IMG/VR virus record: IMGVR_UViG_3300022752_000084
Coordinates: 1-56,730 of that record
Direction: 5' to 3' (one strand)
DNA: 56,730 nucleotides
From: a virus
The notes under the pieces are model-generated. The model did no database searches. It was not told the origin of the DNA and saw only the letters and a list, made by a program, of their open reading frames with translations. The position numbers were made by a program, and so were the translations under genes. Below are positions 10,331 through 51,911 of this stretch, piece by piece. The first letter of the stretch is position 1, and each line of letters begins with the position of its first letter.

Positions 10331-11521
10331 ATGAACGACACCCTCTTTGCCAAGCTTCAAAACTTTCGTGGTTCCCTCAACTCCTCATCACTCGAACGTG
10401 AGCATGTAATTGACGGCCTTCTCGCAACATTACTATCACAACAAAATGCTTTCCTCCTCGGAGCACCAGGAACCGGCAAATCTGATTTAGTGCGCACCAT
10501 CTGCAATGGTATTTCTGGTGCCAACTATTTTGGTTACTTACTCACACCCACGACGGATCCTTCGGAAATCTTTGGACCAGTCGCTGTAAGCAAACTATTA
10601 AATGACGAATATACCCGTGATGTTCAAGGGTATTTACCTGACGCACACATTGCTTTTACAGACGAACTATTTCGTGGTTCATCGGCAATTTTAAACTCAC
10701 TACTTACCCTGTTAAATGAACGAACTTTTAATAACGGCAAGGAAGTTATAAACACTCCGATTCAATCGATTGTTGCAGCAACAAACAGTTGGCCTGACGA
10801 AGAATCCTTGCAAGCATTTGCAGATAGATTTCTATTTCGACCAACAGTTGAATTCTTAAAAAAGCCTGCGTCTAAACGTTTATTAGATTCGTGGGCTGTG
10901 GGTAATGAAGAAAGACCAAAAGTTGGTGTTCACCTTACATTGCCAGAGCTTAAAGCCCTTCAACAGGAAGCTAAAAACATAAAAGTTTCTGAAGAGTTCT
11001 TAGATAAATTTGTGGAGTTATGGGAAATGTTGGCCGCGAGGGCAATCGTAATCAGTGATCGCCGTCGTGTTCAAATCCTCAAGTTTCTTAAAGCTTGGGC
11101 TGTTGTGCAGGGTGATGAAGAGCTTTATCCCGAACACATGCACAACTCCATGATTAACATTGTTTATCAAACTCAAGAGGATCAAGAAACTATTGCGGAA
11201 GTCTTAGAGCACGTTGTACCGACAGCAAATCGAATGTTTGCTGATGCAAAACGAGCTGCTGCGGGGATTATGACAGAATATCATGTTTGCTCTACTAAAC
11301 AAAAATCTAAACAAGGTATTGCTGAGCTTAACGAATTCGTCGGCAACCTACGGAAATATCATAAAGATATGCAAACCGTAAAAAATAAAGTTGCAGAAAT
11401 TTTGGACACTTCTAAATTTAGAATGAATATCCTAGACAGAACGCAAGGCGTAAAGCTAGAACAACAACTGCAAAACTATTTAGATACGTTAGCTATTGCC
11501 ATTTCAGACTTCTCTAAGTAA
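10331..11521 (+). CDS. RavA-like MoxR-family AAA+ ATPase
   Basis: 396 residues. Walker A GAPGTGKS (44-51), Walker B HIAFTDE (about 106-112, D111/E112), the sensor-1 region VAATNSWP, and ...FADRFLFRP follow. Characteristic RavA-type phrases are FGYLLTPTTDPSEIFGPVAVS, GYLPDAHIAFTDELFRGSSA and ILNSLLTLLNERTF. They match the E. coli RavA pattern (YLMTRFSTPEEVFGP, YLPEAEIVFLDE, AILNTLLTAINERQF) closely. MoxR ATPases act as chaperone-like remodellers with a VWA partner, and a VWA gene lies 175 bases downstream. The C-terminal half is helical (LARA-like region not identified). Cytosolic. Confidence 0.85.
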   Translation: MNDTLFAKLQNFRGSLNSSSLEREHVIDGLLATLLSQQNAFLLGAPGTGKSDLVRTICNGISGANYFGYLLTPTTDPSEIFGPVAVSKLLNDEYTRDVQGYLPDAHIAFTDELFRGSSAILNSLLTLLNERTFNNGKEVINTPIQSIVAATNSWPDEESLQAFADRFLFRPTVEFLKKPASKRLLDSWAVGNEERPKVGVHLTLPELKALQQEAKNIKVSEEFLDKFVELWEMLAARAIVISDRRRVQILKFLKAWAVVQGDEELYPEHMHNSMINIVYQTQEDQETIAEVLEHVVPTANRMFADAKRAAAGIMTEYHVCSTKQKSKQGIAELNEFVGNLRKYHKDMQTVKNKVAEILDTSKFRMNILDRTQGVKLEQQLQNYLDTLAIAISDFSK

Positions 11522-11545
11522 AATAAAGCGCATCTAAACAATTGT

Positions 11546-11725
11546 ATGCCTGAAACACAAGAAACTCTACTTGCAATCCGCACCGAGCTGGCGACATTTC
11601 TCGAAGCTGTCGAAGAGATAAAACCTTCGCAAGCTTTTGACCCTTTGGTCAAACTTTTAATCAGCTTAGATCGTAAAATCATTGATTCCAAAAAACATGA
11701 ACACCAACTTCAACAAAACCTCTGA
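11546..11725 (+). CDS. 59-residue protein between ATPase and VWA genes
   Basis: ATG at 11546 to TGA at 11723-11725, overlapping the start of the VWA gene by 29 bases in another frame. It is helical and amphipathic (TLLAIRTELATFLEAVEEI ... PLVKLLISLDRKIIDSKK), like a small adaptor. It fills the space between the two core genes. No family recognised. Confidence 0.5.
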   Translation: MPETQETLLAIRTELATFLEAVEEIKPSQAFDPLVKLLISLDRKIIDSKKHEHQLQQNL

Positions 11726-13253
11726 GTTTATTCGGCTTACACACAACGCTCCGTTAACCCTGACTTGTTCTGCACTAGCTGATTTCCTGTGGGAAGATTT
11801 TATTCGTGAGACCCGCTCCTCTGTCTCTTACATTTCAAACACACACAATATCACACAGATCTCTAGATTCGGTAAAGAACTTTTTGAACGACTTTATCAA
11901 GGTGACTCAGTTACTTGGTTAGTAAGTCTTGAAGATTACGAAGACTATTTTCGAGCAAAACAAGATGGTAGCCCCACGGCAATTTTAAAAAATTATAAGC
12001 CTGAGAATGCGTTTTGGTATTTGGTGATGAGTGCATTATCTAGTGCTTCCGCATGGACTCAGTTATTACAAAATAGTGTTGGTAATCAATTTAACGCAGG
12101 AAATAACGCCGTTAGAATCCTTAATGATTTGGCTGACTTTGTTAGAGAATTGATAGAGGATAATCAAATTGATGTAGATACACTGCTAAAAGCAGGAGAA
12201 AAACTTGAGAGTTTACGAGAAAAGTTCAAACAGGCAAAAGCAAATGGTGACGATAAAGGTGCAGAGGCTGCGCGAGCAGAGGGAAAAGCCGTTGCCCAAA
12301 CAATTCAAAATCAATTGGAACTTTTAAAAGCTTCAGTAGAGGCAGAGGTAAATAATGCGGTAGATGACGCTTTACGTACATCTAAAAATGAAAACGATGC
12401 GTTAGAGACTCTTTGGGGGACTACAGAGGGGGAGGGCTTTCACACGCAAGACTTACAAACGAAAAAAGAATTAGCGGCTAAGTTACAAAAAAATAACACA
12501 CTGAAACAAGTTGCTAAACAATTAGGGTTTTTAAAAAGAATTTGGACAGAAAGAAAACGTGCGAAAAGATCACGAGCAAACTATGAGGCGATTAACGGAG
12601 CCTGCTTTAGTAACGACATTACAAAAGCATTTCCCTTGGAACTTGCACTCGCAGGAACAGAAAAGGGCCGCGCATTATTTGCTCTTAAGCACATGCACAA
12701 AACTATACTCACTAAAGACTATGAGGCGCATAGAAAGGATCTGGGCCGAGGTCCAATAATTCTATATGTGGATACCTCAGGATCAATGTCGGGCAGCTTT
12801 GATATTTGGGCAAAGGCCATAACAATGACTATTGCGGCCCACGCGGGCAAAGATTCCAGGGATGTACATGTACACCTTTTTGACAATCGTGTCGGTGATT
12901 CTTGTATTTTAAAACATAAGAATAATAATCTTGTTCTTATAGATTTTATCTCTTCGTGGCGATTGGGCGGCGGCACTTCGTTTAACGCTGTGCTACTTCA
13001 TGCGCTGACTGCTCTTAAAGATTTCAAAAATGCTGATGTCCTTATGATTACCGATGGTTTTTCGTCATTAGACGCCCACTTGGTTACCAAATTAAATAAA
13101 CACAAAGAAACCGAAGGGTTTCAATGGACGACTTTATGCTTGGGTAGCTCACCTGTTCATACTTTGCACGACTTTTCAGATTTTGTTTACTCGGTGGATA
13201 TTTCAAATCCCGACGAAACAATTGACACTATTCAAAAATCTATAAGAGTGTAA
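11697..13253 (+). CDS. ViaA-like VWA-domain protein
   Basis: 518 residues from the ATG at 11697. A TTG five codons upstream is possible but less likely. The N-terminal 340 residues are helical, with a long coiled coil (about 155-240). The C-terminal VWA domain has an intact MIDAS: DTSGSMS (D359, S361, S363), a Thr in GGGTSF (T427) and ITDG (D453). The order helical N-terminus plus C-terminal VWA, and phrases such as GPIILYVDTSGSM and GGGTS, parallel E. coli ViaA, the partner of RavA. It probably works with the ATPase gene upstream to remodel a protein target. Confidence 0.8.
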   Translation: MNTNFNKTSEFIRLTHNAPLTLTCSALADFLWEDFIRETRSSVSYISNTHNITQISRFGKELFERLYQGDSVTWLVSLEDYEDYFRAKQDGSPTAILKNYKPENAFWYLVMSALSSASAWTQLLQNSVGNQFNAGNNAVRILNDLADFVRELIEDNQIDVDTLLKAGEKLESLREKFKQAKANGDDKGAEAARAEGKAVAQTIQNQLELLKASVEAEVNNAVDDALRTSKNENDALETLWGTTEGEGFHTQDLQTKKELAAKLQKNNTLKQVAKQLGFLKRIWTERKRAKRSRANYEAINGACFSNDITKAFPLELALAGTEKGRALFALKHMHKTILTKDYEAHRKDLGRGPIILYVDTSGSMSGSFDIWAKAITMTIAAHAGKDSRDVHVHLFDNRVGDSCILKHKNNNLVLIDFISSWRLGGGTSFNAVLLHALTALKDFKNADVLMITDGFSSLDAHLVTKLNKHKETEGFQWTTLCLGSSPVHTLHDFSDFVYSVDISNPDETIDTIQKSIRV

Positions 13254-17446: not shown

Positions 17447-19465
17447 TCAAGAAATTGGGTTGGCGCAGAAGAAAGCCCCTGCGTAAACAGTTTTGGCTGC
17501 AGTTGCAGTAAAATCGTATTGGTAAAGGTAGATCGCAAGAGAATCTCCTACATCTGCATAAACAATATCGGCAATGGTAACAAAAAGATCACCCGCCGCT
17601 CCAGAAGGTCCATTGTTTTGGGTGTAACTAGCGGTAAATAGTGAACCGTTTTTGTATATCGCAATTTGCAACACGCAATCATTCGCTCCGGTTATGATTC
17701 CAGCTTTAGCTTTAATGTCATAATATCCAGCACGTGTTACAACAATAAAGCCCGATGCAGGATTGTATATGCCGCCTGTATCGTAATCTTCTACATCAAA
17801 CACAATGCGAGTAAGAGTATTGTTTGCAAGCGAAAAGGTGGCGGTTGTGCGTGCGCGAACAATCTGTCTTGGACTGCCTCCTCCAATCCTTGTTGCCACT
17901 GCAGCGCCAGCACCTGAAACGACCCCCGTGCAATTTGTTAATACAATTTGACTTGACGGAGATGACAAGCTGAGGCTTATATCTTCTAAAAGATTTAAGC
18001 AATTTAGCTTTGTAGAATTTAATGAGTGAGTTGGCGAGTTGCCATAATTAACCCAGTTTTCAACACTTTCCGCTATTACTACTGATGTGTTGTCTATGCC
18101 ACTAAAAGAAGCACTTGCGGAATTGGTATAAATGTTTCTAGCGATCAAACTAGAAATCGTATTTTGACTGGTTTTTATTAGCGTTGAAGCGTTATCTGCT
18201 AAATAAACCCCGTTTTCTATTAGCACGGAACTTGTAGCTTGAGAAGCAGTAGCGCGTACACCAAAATATGGTTTATTGTTTGTGCCATGCACGTTGGCAT
18301 AAAAACTAAGAAAGTTAATGTTTTTGCAATCGCTAATCTTGACATATTCGTCAGCAGTCAATAAAGCGGTTTGAGAGTTTTCAGAAGTAAAATTAACGAG
18401 TGTGATATTAAAGGAATTTTGAAAGAAAGCTAGGTGAGAGTAATTTACATCACCAGTTTCAATAGTAAGGCCATTGATTCTAATGTTAGAGCCCAAGTTG
18501 CAATATAAACCAGTGCCTGTATAATCTCCGATTGTGACCTGCTCCAGTGTCACATAATTTGTTGGGTTAGTTTGACCTAGCGCAATACCATTAGAGCAAT
18601 TAGAAATTATTATATCTTCTAAATGAGCCAAAGTTGATCCATCGACAACTAGAGCATATTCGTTGCCGGTTTGATTTTTTATGTATAGACGCTTTGTGTT
18701 TGTATGTTGCCCCCCTTGGCGAAAGGCAATTCCTGACCCTTGATTATTGTTAATTGTAAAATCTGAAACATAACTAAAACCTCCCGCGAGCCTAAGACCT
18801 GCGCCGGTTGCGCTGGTATTCTTTAAAATTGTCTTTTCGACACCAGCGCCAATTATTGTAATTGGTAGACCAGAATAAAGACCGTATCCTGATGGGTACG
18901 GTTGCACCTGGCTGCTTTCGCTAAAACAATAAGTACCTGTAGGAATATAAAGGATTGCACCACTACCTGTCCCTTGGCAATAAGACAAGCTAGCTTGTAG
19001 GGCAAGCGTATCATCCGTTACTCCATCCCCAACTGCACCAAAGTCCTTAACACTAACAACATCTTTCAGCTTGCTATCAACCGTCCTGGCAACAGCACTA
19101 GCTCCAGCTTGCAAGAAGTTTAACTTAGTCGCATTAATAGCTCCGCTTATATTTACATCAGCATCGATTATCGTACCGCTAGCAATCATTGTGCTAGTTA
19201 CAGTTTCAACATCACCTACAGTTACGACATTATACCCGTTTCTAGATAAAGTTCCAGATACAACTACACCTGATGCTGCGAATAACTGCCCGGTCATGTA
19301 GCCACCGGAAATCGGAACCTTGTTTGATGCAGATACTAACGCAGCATTACCCGAAGCCTGTGCTGTTGTATCAGTTCCAGGTACGGTATCGTTCGCCTCT
19401 AAAGTACGAAAGCCTCGCGGATAAAAGCCGCCACTGTATAGAACTACAGGAATTTGCACTACCAT
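17447..19465 (-). CDS. Tail fibre/tailspike 1 (pectate-lyase-like)
   Basis: 672 residues. Residues about 35-135 are the shared fibre N-terminal module (SASNKVPISGGYMTGQLFAA onward, then VDSKLKD), which probably attaches to the tail. From about 137, VSVKDFGAVGDGVTDDTLALQ opens a right-handed beta-helix of the pectate-lyase/tailspike type. The last 120 residues (RTTATFSLANNTLTRIVFDV ... AGYYDIKAKAGI) look like a C1q/TNF jelly roll, a usual receptor-binding tip. It would bind or degrade host surface polysaccharide. Start chosen for the TAATG overlap with the leader peptide. Fibre 1 has no 42-bp N-terminal repeat. Confidence 0.85.
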   Translation of the reverse strand: MVVQIPVVLYSGGFYPRGFRTLEANDTVPGTDTTAQASGNAALVSASNKVPISGGYMTGQLFAASGVVVSGTLSRNGYNVVTVGDVETVTSTMIASGTIIDADVNISGAINATKLNFLQAGASAVARTVDSKLKDVVSVKDFGAVGDGVTDDTLALQASLSYCQGTGSGAILYIPTGTYCFSESSQVQPYPSGYGLYSGLPITIIGAGVEKTILKNTSATGAGLRLAGGFSYVSDFTINNNQGSGIAFRQGGQHTNTKRLYIKNQTGNEYALVVDGSTLAHLEDIIISNCSNGIALGQTNPTNYVTLEQVTIGDYTGTGLYCNLGSNIRINGLTIETGDVNYSHLAFFQNSFNITLVNFTSENSQTALLTADEYVKISDCKNINFLSFYANVHGTNNKPYFGVRATASQATSSVLIENGVYLADNASTLIKTSQNTISSLIARNIYTNSASASFSGIDNTSVVIAESVENWVNYGNSPTHSLNSTKLNCLNLLEDISLSLSSPSSQIVLTNCTGVVSGAGAAVATRIGGGSPRQIVRARTTATFSLANNTLTRIVFDVEDYDTGGIYNPASGFIVVTRAGYYDIKAKAGIITGANDCVLQIAIYKNGSLFTASYTQNNGPSGAAGDLFVTIADIVYADVGDSLAIYLYQYDFTATAAKTVYAGAFFCANPIS

Positions 19466-26672: not shown

Positions 26673-27032
26673 ATGTGTTTTTGTCCTAAATGTGAATTTT
26701 TAAAATCTCAGGTTTTGGAAAGCAAATTTGTTTACACGAGAAAAAGTATACGTAGGCGGAGGAAGTGCTTGCGTTGTGGCTTCAGATTTACAACTGAGGA
26801 AATCGTTTCTTCGACGCTTCCTGTTGGGCCAAAACTTTTTATTAAAAAACCAAAACGAACAAAACTTTTTGGCAGTAAAAACCCGCGCTCAGTTTTAATT
26901 GAAGATAATGTAAGAGATTTGAGATTACGCTATGAGAAAGGAGAGACGATGAAAGAACTTTCTATCGTTTTTGGAATTAGTGTTTCTCATATATCAAGGA
27001 TTGTCCGTCGCGAATCTTGGACACATGTTTAA
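26673..27032 (+). CDS. NrdR-type zinc ribbon joined to a helix-turn-helix
   Basis: 119 residues. The N-terminus is CPKC (C4, C7), then SIRRRRKCLRCGFRFTTEE (C32, C35), practically the zinc ribbon of NrdR, the repressor of ribonucleotide reductase genes. Instead of the ATP-cone domain of NrdR the C-terminal half is basic and ends with a helix-turn-helix (RYEKGETMKELSIVFGISVS then HISRIV). It should be a DNA-binding regulator; a role in dNTP-gene control is only a guess from the ribbon. It stands alone after a terminator and converges on an NblA-like gene. Confidence 0.75.
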   Translation: MCFCPKCEFLKSQVLESKFVYTRKSIRRRRKCLRCGFRFTTEEIVSSTLPVGPKLFIKKPKRTKLFGSKNPRSVLIEDNVRDLRLRYEKGETMKELSIVFGISVSHISRIVRRESWTHV

Positions 27033-27268
27033 CAGGACTCTTTTTCCACTTGATCTGGGTCGATCAACTCAGTGATCGGAGGCAGCATCATACCTGATCT
27101 TGCGCACCATGTTACGAGAGAGGTAAACATTTTATTTTTCAGTAAAAACTGTTGGTGTATATTATCAAAAATTTCTAATAACTCGTCATGACTTGTCTTT
27201 TTAGCATCCTGCATAATTCTAAAATGTAAAAATTTCTGTTCGGTGCTTAACCAGGGTACACTTGGCAT
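27029..27268 (-). CDS. NblA-like small protein
   Basis: 79 residues. The core WLSTEQKFLHFRIMQDAKKT then SHDELLEIFDNIHQQFLLKN then KMFTSLV follows NblA's layout: L(S/T).EQ.F..R..... S...A.E.L..L..Q...... M...L. NblA is the small helical adaptor that triggers degradation of phycobilisomes and is known in some freshwater cyanophages. The gene is alone on the minus strand in a plus-strand block and has the strongest Shine-Dalgarno I saw (AAGGAGGAT, 27271-27279), as expected for a highly expressed cargo gene. The family assignment is by pattern only. Confidence 0.45.
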   Translation of the reverse strand: MPSVPWLSTEQKFLHFRIMQDAKKTSHDELLEIFDNIHQQFLLKNKMFTSLVTWCARSGMMLPPITELIDPDQVEKESC

Positions 27269-27331: not shown

Positions 27332-27907
27332 ATGCTTCCATCGCCTGACATCGAAATTTTGTCTAGTTTTTACACGTTGCCAACTGGCGTCACCCACGCC
27401 TTGGCCAAACACTCGTATTTAGAAGGCACGATTTTGGTGCCGCACGACGATGAAGAGCAACGACTGAGCAATCAATTGCGAGCTCACAATTACGCGGTAG
27501 CTACTAATCGCGATGAAGAAAATGTAACTAACCCAATTTGGTGGGTATCTCAGCAACAAAAATATGATTGGATCATATCGTCGCTGCTTGGAAAGAAAGA
27601 ATTGTCCAGCTACATCCTTGAGTATGGGATGCAATCCGCAGTTAAAGGAATTGCAATTTTGGAAAGGTTATCTTTTTTAGAGCCAACAGCAAAACGCCGC
27701 GATTTTTTACTTCAACACAAATTATCAAATATCATAATTTTATCTCCACGTCCCAATTTTAGAGCTGTTGGATCAACAAAAGATTCAATCACTAGCGCCT
27801 GGTTCATTTTTCAAAAACCAGAATTTTGGCGCGATGGGACTTTTGTCTCTTATGCGGTAAACTGGGACAATATCCCTAAGTTACCAGAGGTTACCAATGA
27901 AATCTAA
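27332..27907 (+). CDS. DNA methyltransferase-like protein with altered catalytic motif
   Basis: 191 residues. The layout matches small phage adenine methyltransferases: a Rossmann-like strand (GTILVPHDDE, where ILEP.AGDG is expected), AHNYAVATNRDEENVTNPIW (NPIW at 67-70 in place of NPPF/NPPY), GIAILERLSFLEP..RR, LSNIIILSPRPNFR and a final W-rich strand (SAWFIFQK). The SAM-binding Gly-rich loop and the second Pro of the catalytic motif are lost, so it may be inactive and act as a DNA-binding or decoy protein. The ATGA overlap with the next gene shows coupling. Identification moderate. Confidence 0.45.
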   Translation: MLPSPDIEILSSFYTLPTGVTHALAKHSYLEGTILVPHDDEEQRLSNQLRAHNYAVATNRDEENVTNPIWWVSQQQKYDWIISSLLGKKELSSYILEYGMQSAVKGIAILERLSFLEPTAKRRDFLLQHKLSNIIILSPRPNFRAVGSTKDSITSAWFIFQKPEFWRDGTFVSYAVNWDNIPKLPEVTNEI

Positions 27908-34325: not shown

Positions 34326-36527
34326 TTATAAAGTCGCCATCATAAACATTAGAAGTTCTTCATATCGAATGCCGTAGCGATCTCCAGCAGGTTTTAATTC
34401 AATACCCTCCTCATCGTATTCGGCTTCCCATTGGTCATAACAAACAATGCCATAGCGGAAAGGATCAAGCTGTTCCTCCTCAAAAATTTCCATAACTTCT
34501 TGAGTAAGTACACCTATATGTATTCGCGCATTTTCGCCTTTCAACAAAACAGCATCTTTAAACAAAAACTTTTTAATTATTCTTTTAATTTTTTTAGCTA
34601 CTCTTTTTTCTGCTTCATTTAATTCTTCAATGTTTTGTTTTTCGCGTTTATCAGATGTATTAATGGTGCCAGTTGCCGCGTAAACGGTACTCCAGCGATA
34701 AGCTGAATCCCCTAATTTTGCAACATTATCAGCGCCAGGCAAAAGATAATTATACTTAAGGTAATATATGTCTCGTGATCCCGAAGAATCTTGAAAAGTA
34801 AACCGACGGGTATTGTCATAAATAGTAAATACACAACCATTATTGGCATCGTTTGTATTTGTAATAATGCTAATTTTAAGAGTTCCCGCTGTGGATATTT
34901 TTAATCCTGCCACGTTGGATGAAAAATGGTCAATTATAAGATGTGTTTGATCATTTGTAACAGTAGAATACGCAGAAGAATCTCCTACAACTACATTTAC
35001 GCCAGTGTTACTATAAGTATGTAAAGTATTTCCTAAGATTTGATTACTAACAGTTAAATTACCTAAAATATTTTGAGAACCAAGGCTTTGGCTTCCTTTT
35101 TGATAAAAATTAGCATAATCAATACTTGTATTAGCTAACGCCGTTGCGTCTGGAGTGCCAATAGCAAGTACCCCTGAAGGAGGTGTATAACTCAAATAAC
35201 CTTCAATATAAGACAACGCAGGGTTATATCCTATCCCGTAATTATCTCTAATAGCCGCTCCAATTCCCCCAGCAATTAAAATAGTGTCATAATTTCCTTC
35301 AAACCAGTTATTATTAATAAAAGAACTTTCTCCGTCTAATCTAATTGCTCTGCCTTTATTATTGTTTTCAAAAACACAGTTAGAAATAAACCACGTCTGT
35401 GTTCCACTAAGATCTAACGCTTCACACTCGTTTCGGTTTATAGCTGTTGATTTACCAACGCTAAAGTGGCATGCAGTAATTGCAAAGCTAGTGCCAGTTC
35501 TCATAGCACCCGTAGTCTTACTATAAGCTAAACCTTTATTAGATACATATTGAATATCGCAATATTCAACGCAACACGATATGCAATCATCAAACTGTAA
35601 AGCAATCCCCGCCCCAACATCAGTGGCACCCGGCCTAGCTAAACCTCCTATTGAACATTGACAAACCAAACAACGATCTGTTCCTTCAATCCATAATTGC
35701 GTAACATTAACAAAATTGGCAAATGTGTATATAGCAGAAGGCTGATACAACTTGAGTGCAAGACCTGCTATTTGAGAGCGATTTTGACCTTTATAAACAA
35801 CAACTTTTTTGCTAGTTCCTTGAAAGGAAGCCGCCTTACCATAAATGCCTATGCCAGTTTCAGCTCCTCCTCCAGTATTATTTCCAAAAATACTTAAACT
35901 TTTACCTCCTCCTCCTCCGTAACTTGCCCCAGAAGTGTTCCAATCAACAGTATCAGAAACAAGAATTTTGCCAATAATTAATAAGGGCAAACTAGAATTT
36001 ACTGCGGCAACAGCAGCATTTTTTAATCTAGTATGGTTATTGCCATCATCAGTCAAATCTCCAGGAATCCCAAAATCTGCTGTGCTGATAAAATCTTTCA
36101 GCTTACTATCAACAGTTCTAGTAGCGGCCCCAGTACCAGCTTGCAAGAAACTAAGTTTAGTTGCATTAATAGCTCCACTTATATTGACATCCGCATCAAT
36201 GATCGTACCGCTAGCAATCATTGTGCTAGTTACAGTTTCAACATCACCGACAGTTACGACATTATACCCGTTTCTACTTAACGTACCTGATACAACTACA
36301 CCTGATGCTGCAAATAACTGTCCGGTCATGTAGCCACCGGAAATTGGCACCTTATTTGATGCAGATACTAATCCCGCGTTACCCGACGCTAGTGCAATAT
36401 TTGCTAGGACTAATGCAGCATTACCCGAAGCCTGTGCTGTTGGATCCGTCGCTGGTCCAATAGTATCCCCAGGAGGAAGAGTACTAAAAGCACCACTAAC
36501 AAGAACTAAAGGAGTTTGAAGTGCCAT
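34326..36527 (-). CDS. Tail fibre/tailspike 2 with S74 intramolecular chaperone
   Basis: 733 residues. The shared N-terminal module spans about 40-155 and contains one extra 14-residue repeat (LANIALASGNAGLV) compared with fibre 1. The middle is a beta-helix with many Asn/Cys/Ser residues. The C-terminus begins SDKREKQNIEELNEAEK and continues GVLTQEVMEIF, the peptidase_S74 auto-cleaving chaperone that aids trimer folding. The terminal GIRYEELLMFMMATL is also typical. A host-receptor adhesin at the tail tip. The region is AT-rich, unlike the distal part of fibre 3. Confidence 0.88.
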   Translation of the reverse strand: MALQTPLVLVSGAFSTLPPGDTIGPATDPTAQASGNAALVLANIALASGNAGLVSASNKVPISGGYMTGQLFAASGVVVSGTLSRNGYNVVTVGDVETVTSTMIASGTIIDADVNISGAINATKLSFLQAGTGAATRTVDSKLKDFISTADFGIPGDLTDDGNNHTRLKNAAVAAVNSSLPLLIIGKILVSDTVDWNTSGASYGGGGGKSLSIFGNNTGGGAETGIGIYGKAASFQGTSKKVVVYKGQNRSQIAGLALKLYQPSAIYTFANFVNVTQLWIEGTDRCLVCQCSIGGLARPGATDVGAGIALQFDDCISCCVEYCDIQYVSNKGLAYSKTTGAMRTGTSFAITACHFSVGKSTAINRNECEALDLSGTQTWFISNCVFENNNKGRAIRLDGESSFINNNWFEGNYDTILIAGGIGAAIRDNYGIGYNPALSYIEGYLSYTPPSGVLAIGTPDATALANTSIDYANFYQKGSQSLGSQNILGNLTVSNQILGNTLHTYSNTGVNVVVGDSSAYSTVTNDQTHLIIDHFSSNVAGLKISTAGTLKISIITNTNDANNGCVFTIYDNTRRFTFQDSSGSRDIYYLKYNYLLPGADNVAKLGDSAYRWSTVYAATGTINTSDKREKQNIEELNEAEKRVAKKIKRIIKKFLFKDAVLLKGENARIHIGVLTQEVMEIFEEEQLDPFRYGIVCYDQWEAEYDEEGIELKPAGDRYGIRYEELLMFMMATL

Positions 36528-40988: not shown

Positions 40989-42992
40989 CTAGGTTGTGCT
41001 CAGAAGGTAGCCATCAAGACGACACCCTGCTGGACTTGTGCTTGGCGTCCCCACCACAAGCACATAAAGCTCTACTGTTTCGTTGACGGCCAGCTTCAGC
41101 ACTGCGCTTACTGAGCTGCCATACCCGGTCATCAATGGAGTCTTGGAGCGCAGTACGCCGTTTTGATAAAGGGCTACCGTGTTAATTGCGGATGCATCCA
41201 GCTCAACCGAACCGTTGAACTGGTAATAGCCTGGCACAATGGCAGTAAATGTGCTGCTTGCGAATTCACCAAATGAATCCCATGTCTCCGTTCCATCCAG
41301 GATGACTTTTGTCCATGTGATATTTGCCAATGTTTGAACCGTGCTGCCAATCGCTCTGAAGGTTGACGTGTTGTTGAGCGGCCTAGCAAGGAGATACCTA
41401 GTCGGCTTGGTTGTTTCAATGAAGCCGATGTTCTTCAGTGACTGCCCTGATTGGTTATTGACGATGTAACCGGAAGCTCCGCAGTCTGCGTATCCGCCAA
41501 CCACTGAATTGCTTGCGCCGGTGATGTAGTAGGCGGTGTCATAAGCGCCTACCTGGTTAAATGAAAAACAGGCAAAGAAAGCGGCAGACTTGATGGAGTA
41601 GTAATGGTTCTCAATACTGTTATTGGCCACCACCGCCGCTGGAGCATTGCTGGTCAGCTCAACGCCAATTGTGTTTGCACCAGGGGTTCCAGAGTGCACC
41701 AGTGTGTTAGCAGAAATTAGAAAGCTGCCTGTCTGGTTGTTCGGTGCAATTTTGATGTAACTTTGTCCAGTGCCAATGGCGTCCGTGGTGCTTGAAATCA
41801 GCGTGCAACCCAAAACTTTACTTTTGCCAGCGGCTCCTTCCAGGCTAATTCCAGTACTTTTAAATCCTTCTGAATGGCAATTCTGAAAGATTGCATAACC
41901 AGCACTGCTTGAAACTCCACTTCCTTGGACTTGGTAAGCAATTACACCACCATCAGATTTGCAATTAAAGAAATGAGCAAACGGCCCCCTAACATGATAT
42001 GCTGCATAAAGAGGAGCTGATGGATATTGCCCGTTTGGCATATTGACATAACATTGATTAAAGTCCCAAGCATACGAATCAAGATAATCGCTTGGATTAT
42101 CCATGTAAAAGCCGTATTCACGGCAACGCATGACAACTACTCGTTCAAATCTAGACCCACGTGCGTATTGAAAATAAACACCTCGCGTAGCTATATTTTG
42201 TCCATCAAGAAATAAATCATAAAGTCCGTTTTGAAACTCGCCAGCAGGATTTTGTGTTTGGCTAATCATATAAATAGATTGATCTGTAGTTATTGTTGCT
42301 CCGTACCTTGTGGCATTTGGTGCATTTTCAGAAGTCAATCCCCTTAAACCCACGTTGGGTTTTAAAATAATTGGGGAAGTTATATAATAAGTGCCTGCAG
42401 GAAAACAAACATCAGAATAACCGTATCCAGTTGCGGCAGCGTTGATTGCATTATTAATAGCGTTTGTACAATCTACTGCTCCATTAGGATTAGCTCCAAA
42501 ATCTAAAACACTAATAAAATCCTTCAGCTTACTATCAACCGTCCTGGCAACACCGCTTGCGCCAGCTTGCAAAAAATTAAGTTTAGTTGCATTAATAGCT
42601 CCACTTATATTTACATCCGCATCGATTATCGTACCACTAGCAATCATTGTGCTAGTTACAGTTTCAACATCACCTACAGTTACGACATTAAATCCGTTTC
42701 TAGATAAAGTTCCAGATACAACTACACCTGATGCTGCGAACAACTGCCCGGTCATGTAGCCACCGGAGATTGGCACCTTATTTGATGCAGATACTAATCC
42801 CGCGTTACCCGACGCTAGTGCAGTACCTGCTAGAACTAATCCAGCGTTACCCGACGCTAATGCAGTATTTGCTAGAACTAACGCAGCATTACCTGAAGCC
42901 TGTGCTGTTGTATCAGTTCCAGGTACGGTATCTCCGGGAAATAACTGGCTAAAGAAACCACTAGCCAATACAATGGGACTTTGTATAGTCAT
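40989..42992 (-). CDS. Tail fibre/tailspike 3 (pectate-lyase-like), mosaic
   Basis: 667 residues. The shared N-terminal module (about 20-160) contains two extra 14-residue repeats (LANTALASGNAGLV, LAGTALASGNAGLV). From about 160, ISVLDFGANPNGAVDCTNAI begins a beta-helix domain, and the last 110 residues form a C1q-like tip (W..FGEFASSTFTAIVPGYYQ then FNGSV.L). The distal coding region (40989 to about 41900) is clearly richer in GC than the proximal half, which points to a recent module swap. The start overlaps the stop of the upstream gene (TAATG). Confidence 0.85.
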   Translation of the reverse strand: MTIQSPIVLASGFFSQLFPGDTVPGTDTTAQASGNAALVLANTALASGNAGLVLAGTALASGNAGLVSASNKVPISGGYMTGQLFAASGVVVSGTLSRNGFNVVTVGDVETVTSTMIASGTIIDADVNISGAINATKLNFLQAGASGVARTVDSKLKDFISVLDFGANPNGAVDCTNAINNAINAAATGYGYSDVCFPAGTYYITSPIILKPNVGLRGLTSENAPNATRYGATITTDQSIYMISQTQNPAGEFQNGLYDLFLDGQNIATRGVYFQYARGSRFERVVVMRCREYGFYMDNPSDYLDSYAWDFNQCYVNMPNGQYPSAPLYAAYHVRGPFAHFFNCKSDGGVIAYQVQGSGVSSSAGYAIFQNCHSEGFKSTGISLEGAAGKSKVLGCTLISSTTDAIGTGQSYIKIAPNNQTGSFLISANTLVHSGTPGANTIGVELTSNAPAAVVANNSIENHYYSIKSAAFFACFSFNQVGAYDTAYYITGASNSVVGGYADCGASGYIVNNQSGQSLKNIGFIETTKPTRYLLARPLNNTSTFRAIGSTVQTLANITWTKVILDGTETWDSFGEFASSTFTAIVPGYYQFNGSVELDASAINTVALYQNGVLRSKTPLMTGYGSSVSAVLKLAVNETVELYVLVVGTPSTSPAGCRLDGYLLSTT

Positions 42993-46976: not shown

Positions 46977-47279
46977 ATGAACTTAAAAGAACTTATCGAA
47001 TGCCTACGCAGCATTGACACCTCATTACAAGTCATTGCAAGCACCCATTCAGGGAACATAACTACAGCATTTGTAAACAAAAAAACAATGGCTGCGAGGA
47101 TGAGCGTCCCTCCCGTAACCATAGATAAATTAATCCATCAGGGTCTTATCTCTGGTGGGGCTTCTGGGTTGGTCGAAGGAAAACACTATTGCAAAATCGA
47201 TCCTACGGAAAACAACACCAACAATTTTTTGTTTGATGCTGTTAAAGTAATGGCAGACGCATGGAACTCTTTCCAGTAA
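46977..47279 (+). CDS. Excisionase-like HTH protein
   Basis: 100 residues. The centre AFVNKKTMAARMSVPPVTID then KLIHQGLISGG...GLVEGKHY is a winged helix of the excisionase/MerR type: 'A.RM.VP..T....I..G.I.G....G.HY'. The N-terminus is a helix. It would bind DNA as a regulator or an excisionase, but no integrase is seen in this window. Confidence 0.55.
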   Translation: MNLKELIECLRSIDTSLQVIASTHSGNITTAFVNKKTMAARMSVPPVTIDKLIHQGLISGGASGLVEGKHYCKIDPTENNTNNFLFDAVKVMADAWNSFQ

Positions 47280-47280
47280 A

Positions 47281-47703
47281 ATGTTCAAATTTCTATCTAA
47301 CCGGACTAAAAAATTCGCCTCTACCTTATTTGGCAAAAGCGAATTTCAGAATCGTATGGCATTGAATACAGTTAAATTAATTTTAAACGACATCGATGTC
47401 CTCTATAAAGAATATCGCACCCACGTTGGACCAGGCGTTTTATTTTTTAACCCAGAATCCCCTAATAAAAGCTCTTATTTAAACGTTAAGCAAATAAAAG
47501 AAGACCTAGCTAGGGCTGAAGAATTTTGCGATGAAGGGACTGCATCCTTTTTAAAAAAAGTGATTTCTATGGCAGAACGCACCAAGTTAAAAGATCCTGT
47601 TGTTGTTATGGTCGAACCAGCACGACTCAGTGTTCATGTTTTGAATATTGAGGAGTCGACAAAACAACTAGAGGAATTAGCGAGTGCCGTTGGCAAATAT
47701 TGA
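47281..47703 (+). CDS. Hypothetical protein
   Basis: 140 residues, one base after the previous stop. Basic N-terminus (FKFLSNRTKKFASTLFGKSE), then mainly helices with one hydrophobic strand (DPVVVMVEPARLSVHVL). It overlaps the start of the Dam-like gene by 20 bases. No family recognised. Confidence 0.55.
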   Translation: MFKFLSNRTKKFASTLFGKSEFQNRMALNTVKLILNDIDVLYKEYRTHVGPGVLFFNPESPNKSSYLNVKQIKEDLARAEEFCDEGTASFLKKVISMAERTKLKDPVVVMVEPARLSVHVLNIEESTKQLEELASAVGKY

Positions 47704-48262
47704 TTTTGTTTCTCCACCAGAAGTAATCGGAACAGTAACGTCTTTTTTTGGAGGGGAAATCGGATTAGATCCGTGTTCAAGCGAATTTGCGAACACTATG
47801 GTTTGTGCAAATCGCTATTTTTCATGGGAACAAAACGGGTTAAAACAAAAGTGGAAATCAAAAAATGTTTATGTATATCCACCCAGAGATTTTTTGACCC
47901 CTATAGAGCAGCCGCCAGACAGTGTGTTGTTTCGTAAAAAACGAAGGTTCACAAAATCTGCACAACGAATTTGGTTAGAAGAATGTGTGAGGCGTTATCA
48001 AAGAAACGAATTTGATGAGGCGATAGTTTTTTTAACGTCTACCGAAGTTGCGCTTCTGGTGACTCAAAAGTTAAACATAGATTTTCCCCTTTGTATTTTA
48101 AAAGAAAGACCCGAACTTTATTTAGATGAGCCTGGTTTGCCAAAGTTAGGTCCTACCAAATGTTTTGGTTTTATCTTATATTTACCTAAACTTATAAATC
48201 CGCAGAAAGCCGTGTTTGAGTTTCGGGAGATGTTTAGTAATATTGGACGTGTGTATTGTTAA
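47684..48262 (+). CDS. Dam-like N6-adenine methyltransferase with YPPR in place of (D/N)PP(Y/F)
   Basis: 192 residues, GTG start with GAGGAA upstream. It follows phage Dam-type enzymes (T1-like): F.SPPEVI.....FFGGEIGLDP, CSSEFANTMVCANRYFSWEQ (D..A...N....RYFT in the family), NGLKQKWKSKNVYVYPPR, then FDEAIVFLTSTEVALLV. The catalytic motif IV expected at 65-68 is YPPR, losing the first Asp/Asn and the aromatic residue that hold the adenine amino group. It is likely inactive or altered, and may instead bind or mask sites. Its 3' end overlaps a convergent gene by 29 bases. Confidence 0.55.
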   Translation: MPLANIDFVSPPEVIGTVTSFFGGEIGLDPCSSEFANTMVCANRYFSWEQNGLKQKWKSKNVYVYPPRDFLTPIEQPPDSVLFRKKRRFTKSAQRIWLEECVRRYQRNEFDEAIVFLTSTEVALLVTQKLNIDFPLCILKERPELYLDEPGLPKLGPTKCFGFILYLPKLINPQKAVFEFREMFSNIGRVYC

Positions 48263-51380: not shown

Positions 51381-51911
51381 ATGAATACCCCAGACTCTTT
51401 TGACTATACCGAAAATTCGCCATTACCAGAAGAGTCTGGGCAATTTATGGTTGCCGATGAGCCCACGCTGGAATTAAGTGTTCTTATAGAGAACTTGATT
51501 TCTTTTTCGTCTTATCTAAATCAAATGTACCTCCAATCACACTTAATTCATCTAAATGTGGAGGGTCCTTTGTTCCTTCCTGTTCATGAGTTTTTGAAAA
51601 AACAGTATTCTGCTCACATTGAGCAGTTTGACAGCATCGCTGAGTACGTTCGAAGCATGGATTATCTCATGCCTATGTGCGCTAAAGGACTTTTACAAAC
51701 TTTTAAAGGTTTTAAACATGTTAAGTCCTACGATACTCGTGAAATGTTGACTATATATGTAAAAAATTTAGAAACTGCAGGCATGGAAGCTAAAAATTTA
51801 GCAAAAATGTCCGAATGTGCCGGGGCTGTAGACGTTGCGAATTATTTACAGGAACTTGTAGGGGATATGTTTAAAGCTGCCTGGTTTGTTAAAGCAACTT
51901 TACGCGGCTAA
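51381..51911 (+). CDS. dps: Dps-like ferritin
   Basis: 176 residues. The ferritin-like helix pair 'SYLNQMYLQSHLIHLNVEGP', 'LFLPVHEFLKKQYSAHIEQF', 'DSIAEYVRSMDYLMP' matches Dps (HWNV.GP.F...H.....Y......D.IAER.R..G..P). The ferroxidase residues are all there: H57, H69, D84 and E88. Dps proteins bind iron at dimer interfaces, quench peroxide and may coat DNA. It would protect the phage genome or host from oxidative stress. The C-terminal helix is longer than usual. It converges with the virion block (4-base overlap). Confidence 0.75.
   Translation: MNTPDSFDYTENSPLPEESGQFMVADEPTLELSVLIENLISFSSYLNQMYLQSHLIHLNVEGPLFLPVHEFLKKQYSAHIEQFDSIAEYVRSMDYLMPMCAKGLLQTFKGFKHVKSYDTREMLTIYVKNLETAGMEAKNLAKMSECAGAVDVANYLQELVGDMFKAAWFVKATLRG

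Follow-up and report, generated by a model that had tools for sequence, protein, structure and literature searches.

The Dam-like genes of phages are usually annotated as DNA methyltransferases and are taken to give protection against restriction. The closest described systems are the PF05869 (Dam), TIGR01712 (phage N-6-adenine-methyltransferase) and phrog_111 families. The role of the catalytic motif IV is described for CamA, where the Asn and the Tyr of NPPY bind and stack the target adenine: the flipped base is sandwiched by two tyrosines, of which NPPY supplies one, Asn165 sits at N1, and the motif is placed after strand beta4 (PMC8187626). A change of DPPY to APPA served to obtain a catalysis-defective form of two methyltransferases (PMC7736820), and METTL14, in which the motif reads EPPL, is a non-catalytic subunit (PMC5023411). 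Within the literature searched, no published phage pseudo-methyltransferase of the kind described below was found.

The window analysed here is the whole of the IMG/VR virus record IMGVR_UViG_3300022752_000084 (56,730 nucleotides). The Dam-like gene that is our main subject (Table 1) shares with PF05869, TIGR01712 and phrog_111 the motif order, a full-length profile alignment and the predicted fold, but it falls below their curated cut-offs, and the Asn and stacking aromatic residue of motif IV as well as the aromatic residue beside motif X are replaced. Its nearest cultured-phage relatives outside the clades with an aromatic motif IV are the Dam-like proteins of Nostoc phage N1, Anabaena phage Elbi and Nostoc phage YongM (NPPG) and of Vibrio and Aliivibrio phages (NHPF), which align over the full length; these keep the Asn, however, and their records lack the companion gene found upstream in the window. 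Closer in type is AHV82250.1 of Synechococcus phage S-EIV1, annotated as a hypothetical protein, which is present as a single copy, carries FPPN and has the same upstream companion, although it is 24% identical to the window protein, has S-N for S-P at motif X and is followed by a dCTP deaminase gene. METTL14 is similar in being a methyltransferase-fold protein whose DPPW-type motif is degenerate and which is itself not catalytic (PMC5023411), but it is a subunit of a eukaryotic RNA m6A writer with a catalytic paralogue, of which none was found in the window or in the 27 records described below.

Table 1. Coordinates of the genes and motif regions discussed, as positions in the window.
Feature	Position	Strand	Description	Basis
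Apparent helix-turn-helix protein	46977..47279	+	100 aa; weak counterpart before the gene pair in the S-EIV1 clade	
Companion gene	47281..47703	+	140 aa; overlaps the start of the Dam-like gene by 20 nt; without Pfam or PHROG family	
Dam-like gene	47684..48262	+	methyltransferase-fold protein related to PF05869/phrog_111; 192 aa; motif IV is YPPR	profiles, fold prediction
Motif X region	47708..47716	+	codons 9-11 (V-S-P) of the Dam-like gene; residue 9 aliphatic, aromatic in Asn-type relatives	
Motif I region	47768..47782	+	codons 29-33 (D-P-C-S-S); D29 in 156/156 distinct relatives	
N-G-L	47834..47842	+	codons 51-53; residue 51 is N/D/Q in 121/121 aromatic-type proteins	
Motif IV position	47876..47887	+	codons 65-68 (Y-P-P-R), after predicted strand 59-64	
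Second methyltransferase-like gene	27332..27907	+	related to phrog_799; 191 aa; motif IV lost	
Motif IV place of the second protein	27584..27595	+	codons 85-88 (L-L-G-K), opposite NPPF in three phage homologues	

The Dam-like gene starts with GTG, 8 nt downstream of the end of an AGAGGA stretch. In profile searches with the single sequence, the Dam-type methyltransferase match stops after the first 67-69 residues: PF05869 matches residues 10-67 (E 3.5e-4, 20.7 bits, under the cut-off of 28.1), phrog_111 matches with E 2.6e-6, the best of the PADLOC orphan methyltransferase models with E 1.3e-3, and TIGR01712 with E 0.015 and 14.8 bits, short of its cut-off of 97.05. The family alignment reaches much further. 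With hhalign it covers 173 columns of the phage Dam-type profile (E 1.2e-21), YPPR landing on N[PH]P[YF], and against the Nostoc and Anabaena phage proteins (E 9.4e-17) it sets Y65-P66-P67-R68 on motif IV again. The initial annotation had described the protein as Dam-type with YPPR in place of both catalytic positions, and the profile alignment bears this out. It had also named, as grounds for abandoning this view, any other alignment that would restore an intact motif; neither [DNSE][PIVL]P[YFWH], nor NPPx, nor NHP[FY] occurs anywhere else in the protein, and the same motifs are absent in a methyltransferase context from the 137 ORFs of at least 60 aa in the window.

The AlphaFold2 model (pLDDT 87, pTM 0.85) places residues 65-68 directly after strand 59-64, which matches the placement of motif IV after beta4 (PMC8187626). 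On re-alignment the nearest PDB folds were mostly adenine-N6 methyltransferases with Z of 8-10, namely CAPAM (Z 10.0, 148 aligned residues, 3.4 A), RlmJ (Z 9.3, 149 residues, 3.6 A) and M.TaqI (Z 8.4, 148 residues, 3.7 A). Foldseek alone returned nothing from the PDB under E 0.001. A viral structure library gave 18 matches under 0.001, several of them named DNA N-6-adenine-methyltransferase. Family alignment, predicted model and fold matches thus all place the protein with PF05869, while what stands at motif IV is neither [DN]PP[YFW] nor one of the NPPG and NHPF variants. We file the gene in the phage Dam-like family as an altered form, outside the enzymatically defined family.

The replacement is old and conserved. 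Relatives were gathered in three scans by patterns that avoid motif IV, taken from motif I, from C-terminal stretches and from N-terminal stretches. One scan gave 533 confirmed stretches and another 435, and of each the best 80 were kept. Of the 156 distinct relatives obtained, 59 fall in the clade of the window, 62 in the clade of S-EIV1 and 35 elsewhere. These counts drop exact copies only, many loci being near-copies from different metagenomes, and they include one protein with a premature stop (L079) and one cut by the contig end (L002). From cellular genomes, 27 stretches fitted the patterns and none was confirmed. In this set the first position of motif IV is aromatic in all 121 proteins of the two sister clades, both of cyanophage type (48 Tyr and 11 Phe in the window clade, 62 Phe in the S-EIV1 clade), Asn or Asp occurring in none, and it is Asn in all 35 others. 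The last position is Arg (55) or Lys (4) in the window clade, a mixture of Ser (22), Asn (18), Arg (10), Lys (5), Ala (3), Gly (3) and His (1) in the S-EIV1 clade, and Tyr (18), Gly (12) or Phe (5) in the Asn-type relatives. The strict shared feature is therefore the aromatic first position, the basic last residue being a feature of the window clade, and the 12 Asn-type proteins with Gly show that the stacking aromatic residue can be lost while the Asn is kept. A sequencing error, a frameshift or chance can be ruled out as the source of YPPR, since all 59 distinct window-clade sequences read [YF]PP[RK]; comparison with related phages, the check proposed in the initial annotation, thus came out in its favour.

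A second aromatic residue changed with motif IV. Residue 9, beside the T/S-P of motif X, is always Tyr or Trp in the 35 Asn-type proteins, whereas all 121 of the aromatic type carry Val or Ile there, and because this aromatic residue is lost together with the motif IV Asn, the target-base pocket looks rebuilt rather than eroded. Our guess is that residue 9 is the counterpart of the other tyrosine of CamA. On the AdoMet side D29 is invariant, S32 and G52 each occur in 153 of 156, with residue 51 restricted as given in Table 1. Pro11 of motif X is present in 59 of 59 window-clade proteins, but 52 of 62 S-EIV1-clade proteins have Asn at this position, so that AdoMet binding may not persist in that clade.

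Such a pocket could also belong to a working enzyme. The main rival to a pseudo-enzyme reading is that of an AdoMet-dependent enzyme that remains active but has changed its target or its chemistry: the aromatic residue at position 65 would take on the stacking, the prolines would hold the loop and the acceptor would not be an exocyclic amino group but, for example, a pyrimidine ring, RNA or protein. It is kept alive by the motif I Asp, by the retained N/D/Q51-Gly-Leu, by both motif IV prolines, found in 121 of 121 aromatic-type proteins, and by the strict Phe or Tyr at position 65. A mere scaffold would not require conservation this tight, which could point to a site that works on another target. 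Position 68, however, differs by clade (R/K against S/N/R/K/A/G/H), motif X has gone from S/T-P to S/T-N in most of the S-EIV1 clade, and a P-P can persist in an inactive site, as in METTL14 (PMC5023411). We consider this alternative rather unlikely, though it deserves to be taken seriously.

In a maximum-likelihood tree of 76 sequences the Asn and aromatic types are split on one branch (100/100), and a single change accounts for them in 100% of 200 bootstrap trees. Within the aromatic part Phe and Tyr switch several times, with no return to Asn or Asp. The tree leaves out L079, L002, nine short or far sequences and those at least 85% like one kept; as long branches were flagged in it, the single split is all that we take from it, and as its root is uncertain, the direction from Asn to aromatic is suggested by the Asn of other phage Dam-like proteins. 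A decaying gene without function would fit the loss of a catalytic motif taken by itself, and L079 has a stop at codon 158. Yet 81 of the 83 copies examined have an intact, full-length reading frame (the other exception, L002, runs off its contig), the window and the relative L001 differ with dN 0.002 and dS 0.050, and F/Y-P-P stands in 121 of 121, so that free decay is contradicted by the conservation and we give it practically no credence. The ratio of dN to dS is a thin test here, with seven pairs of usable dS among 53 equal-length sequences (median 0.135); the values of 0.40-0.44 in three pairs all come from comparing L026, at high dS and without gap alignment, with a single set of near-copies.

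The aromatic type is accompanied by the gene directly upstream. We clustered the ORFs surrounding the Dam-like gene at 161 loci (70 of the window clade and 91 of the S-EIV1 clade, from the same best 80 of 533 and of 435); the 91 represent 86 contigs, five having been counted twice (L084/L161, L085/L163, L087/L158, L088/L159 and L091/L160). The companion is present at 156 of the 161, that is at 70 of 70 window-clade and 86 of 91 S-EIV1-clade loci (81 of the 86 contigs), always on the same strand, with an overlap of 1 nt in 80 of the 156, of 4-56 nt in 74 and a distance of 264 nt in 2. At L148 and L215 the contig begins within 60 bases of the gene, and the companion could not show. Its absence from L081-L083, which form one sub-branch, speaks against the pairing. 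When whole records were searched, the companion was found in 22 of 22 records with the aromatic type and in 1 of 24 with the Asn type, that one match scoring 16 bits. The versions of the two clades are homologous (hhalign E 4.4e-15), and since general synteny is high inside each clade, only this cross-clade pairing counts as strong evidence. The companion has no believable relative in Pfam, PHROG, NCBIfam, PADLOC or the PDB, where the best match has E 0.0042 and most are coiled coils.

Besides the companion, the clustering put only one neighbour family in both clades; it lies on the opposite strand about 3 kb off, at 58 window-clade and 8 S-EIV1-clade loci. A weak third member before the pair is the apparent helix-turn-helix protein, read as such from its sequence, which aligns with its S-EIV1-clade counterpart over 49 columns (hhalign E 1e-5, probability 82%) and weakly with the PHROG terminase small subunit (E 0.04). 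In the S-EIV1 clade a dCTP deaminase gene, the S-EIV1 copy being named by NCBIfam, directly follows the Dam-like gene at 91 of 91 loci (for example 3315-3902 in L004). This context of nucleotide metabolism would suit an enzyme of changed substrate, but the family is a neighbour at none of the 70 window-clade loci.

Like METTL14, the Dam-like protein has a degenerate motif IV, here under conservation, and the gene pairing may point to a dedicated partner. It could be one half, without catalysis of its own, of an active two-subunit methyltransferase of the METTL3/METTL14 kind, the catalytic half coming from the host or from another phage gene, for which METTL14 is the precedent (PMC5023411) and the conserved pairing an argument. 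The companion, however, matches no methyltransferase profile, and no N/D-P-P-Y stands in a methyltransferase context in the window. No intact amino-methyltransferase family was found at cut-off in 27 records (the window, 25 related IMG/VR records and S-EIV1), some of which may be incomplete: PF01555 and PF02086 occur in none, PF05869 in none above cut-off (15 weak matches are the Dam-like gene itself), and PF00145 in a single record (that of L042, at 12076-13095 of contig C1 of G014), as a full C5-cytosine methyltransferase (E 1.2e-70). We thus hold an active two-subunit enzyme to be improbable. GATC, mildly rarer in the window than expected (202 against 234), speaks neither for nor against Dam activity.

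The initial annotation had pointed out that the phage encodes another methyltransferase-like protein whose motif is broken, and this is confirmed. This second protein matches the DNA methyltransferases of phrog_799 (E 7.3e-8), and relative to three phage homologues TNPPF has become SLLGK and the motif I EPC has become VPH. Relatives are encoded at 39 IMG/VR loci; NPP is found at the motif IV place in none of the 23 that were aligned and is absent from the divergent versions compared too. Its AlphaFold2 model has a pLDDT of 37, and we make no claim from its fold. Two small genes lie before it: a 79-aa ORF on the minus strand (27029-27268), kept at 49 of 49 loci, and a 119-aa protein (26673-27032) with an NrdR-like zinc ribbon and a sigma-region-4-like helix-turn-helix. 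From the two altered proteins it had been suggested that they have a shared non-catalytic use or a changed substrate. A non-catalytic role or a changed substrate agrees with the old and conserved replacement. A shared use, or one complex of the two, could draw on the conservation of both in the lineage, the second being found in 19 of 25 large related IMG/VR records that have the first (the other six are possibly incomplete); but the two belong to different families (phrog_111 and phrog_799), the second sits about 20 kb away in a replication block, among conserved neighbours of its own, and in S-EIV1 only the first type is detectable. This part of the suggestion appears very doubtful, and the evidence points to the companion, on which the initial annotation is silent, rather than to the second methyltransferase-like gene as the gene partner.

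On balance, we lean towards reading the Dam-like protein as a conserved pseudo-methyltransferase, which would form a complex with the upstream protein and bind nucleic acid there without catalysis. It descends from a phage Dam-type adenine methyltransferase with the motif order X-I-IV, and much of the AdoMet side as well as the predicted fold is retained, while three changes affected the pocket: (i) the base-contacting Asn became Phe or Tyr, (ii) the base-stacking Tyr became Arg or Lys or, in the sister clade, any of several small, polar and basic residues, and (iii) the aromatic residue by motif X became Val or Ile. Judged by the known roles of motif IV in other enzymes, a protein with a target-base pocket rebuilt in this way most likely does not methylate adenine. 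It probably binds nucleic acid together with the companion product, and the apparent helix-turn-helix protein is perhaps also part of the complex. More broadly, and tentatively, it is possible that S-EIV1-like phages widely carry a two-gene module in which a Dam-fold protein, as an AdoMet-binding, DNA-handling factor that is non-methylating or reacts differently, works with a dedicated small protein: this would be either a phage counterpart of METTL14 that lacks a catalytic sister or a novel kind of AdoMet-dependent modification.

Other features of the window may be recorded here. GATATC occurs once in its 56,730 positions against about 13 expected from sub-words. No other 6-mer palindrome examined is avoided so strongly, and this may reflect host restriction of unmodified DNA. 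A 176-aa ferritin-like protein is encoded at 51381-51911 (Pfam Ferritin, E 1.9e-13), and genes for a MoxR-type AAA ATPase and a von Willebrand-A-like protein adjoin at 10331-13253. Three large tail-fibre-like proteins (17447-19465, 34326-36527 and, on the minus strand, 40989-42992) share a near-identical N-terminal module and then diverge, and so look like exchangeable fibres on one anchor.

The lineage of the Dam-like gene is common, as the 533 and 435 confirmed stretches attest, and if its members do not methylate adenine, as their motifs suggest, annotations as DNA methyltransferase would be wrong for the whole lineage. The single split between Asn and aromatic types, followed by exchange of Phe and Tyr only, provides a natural experiment on motif IV, and the companion gene can now be named as a candidate to test.
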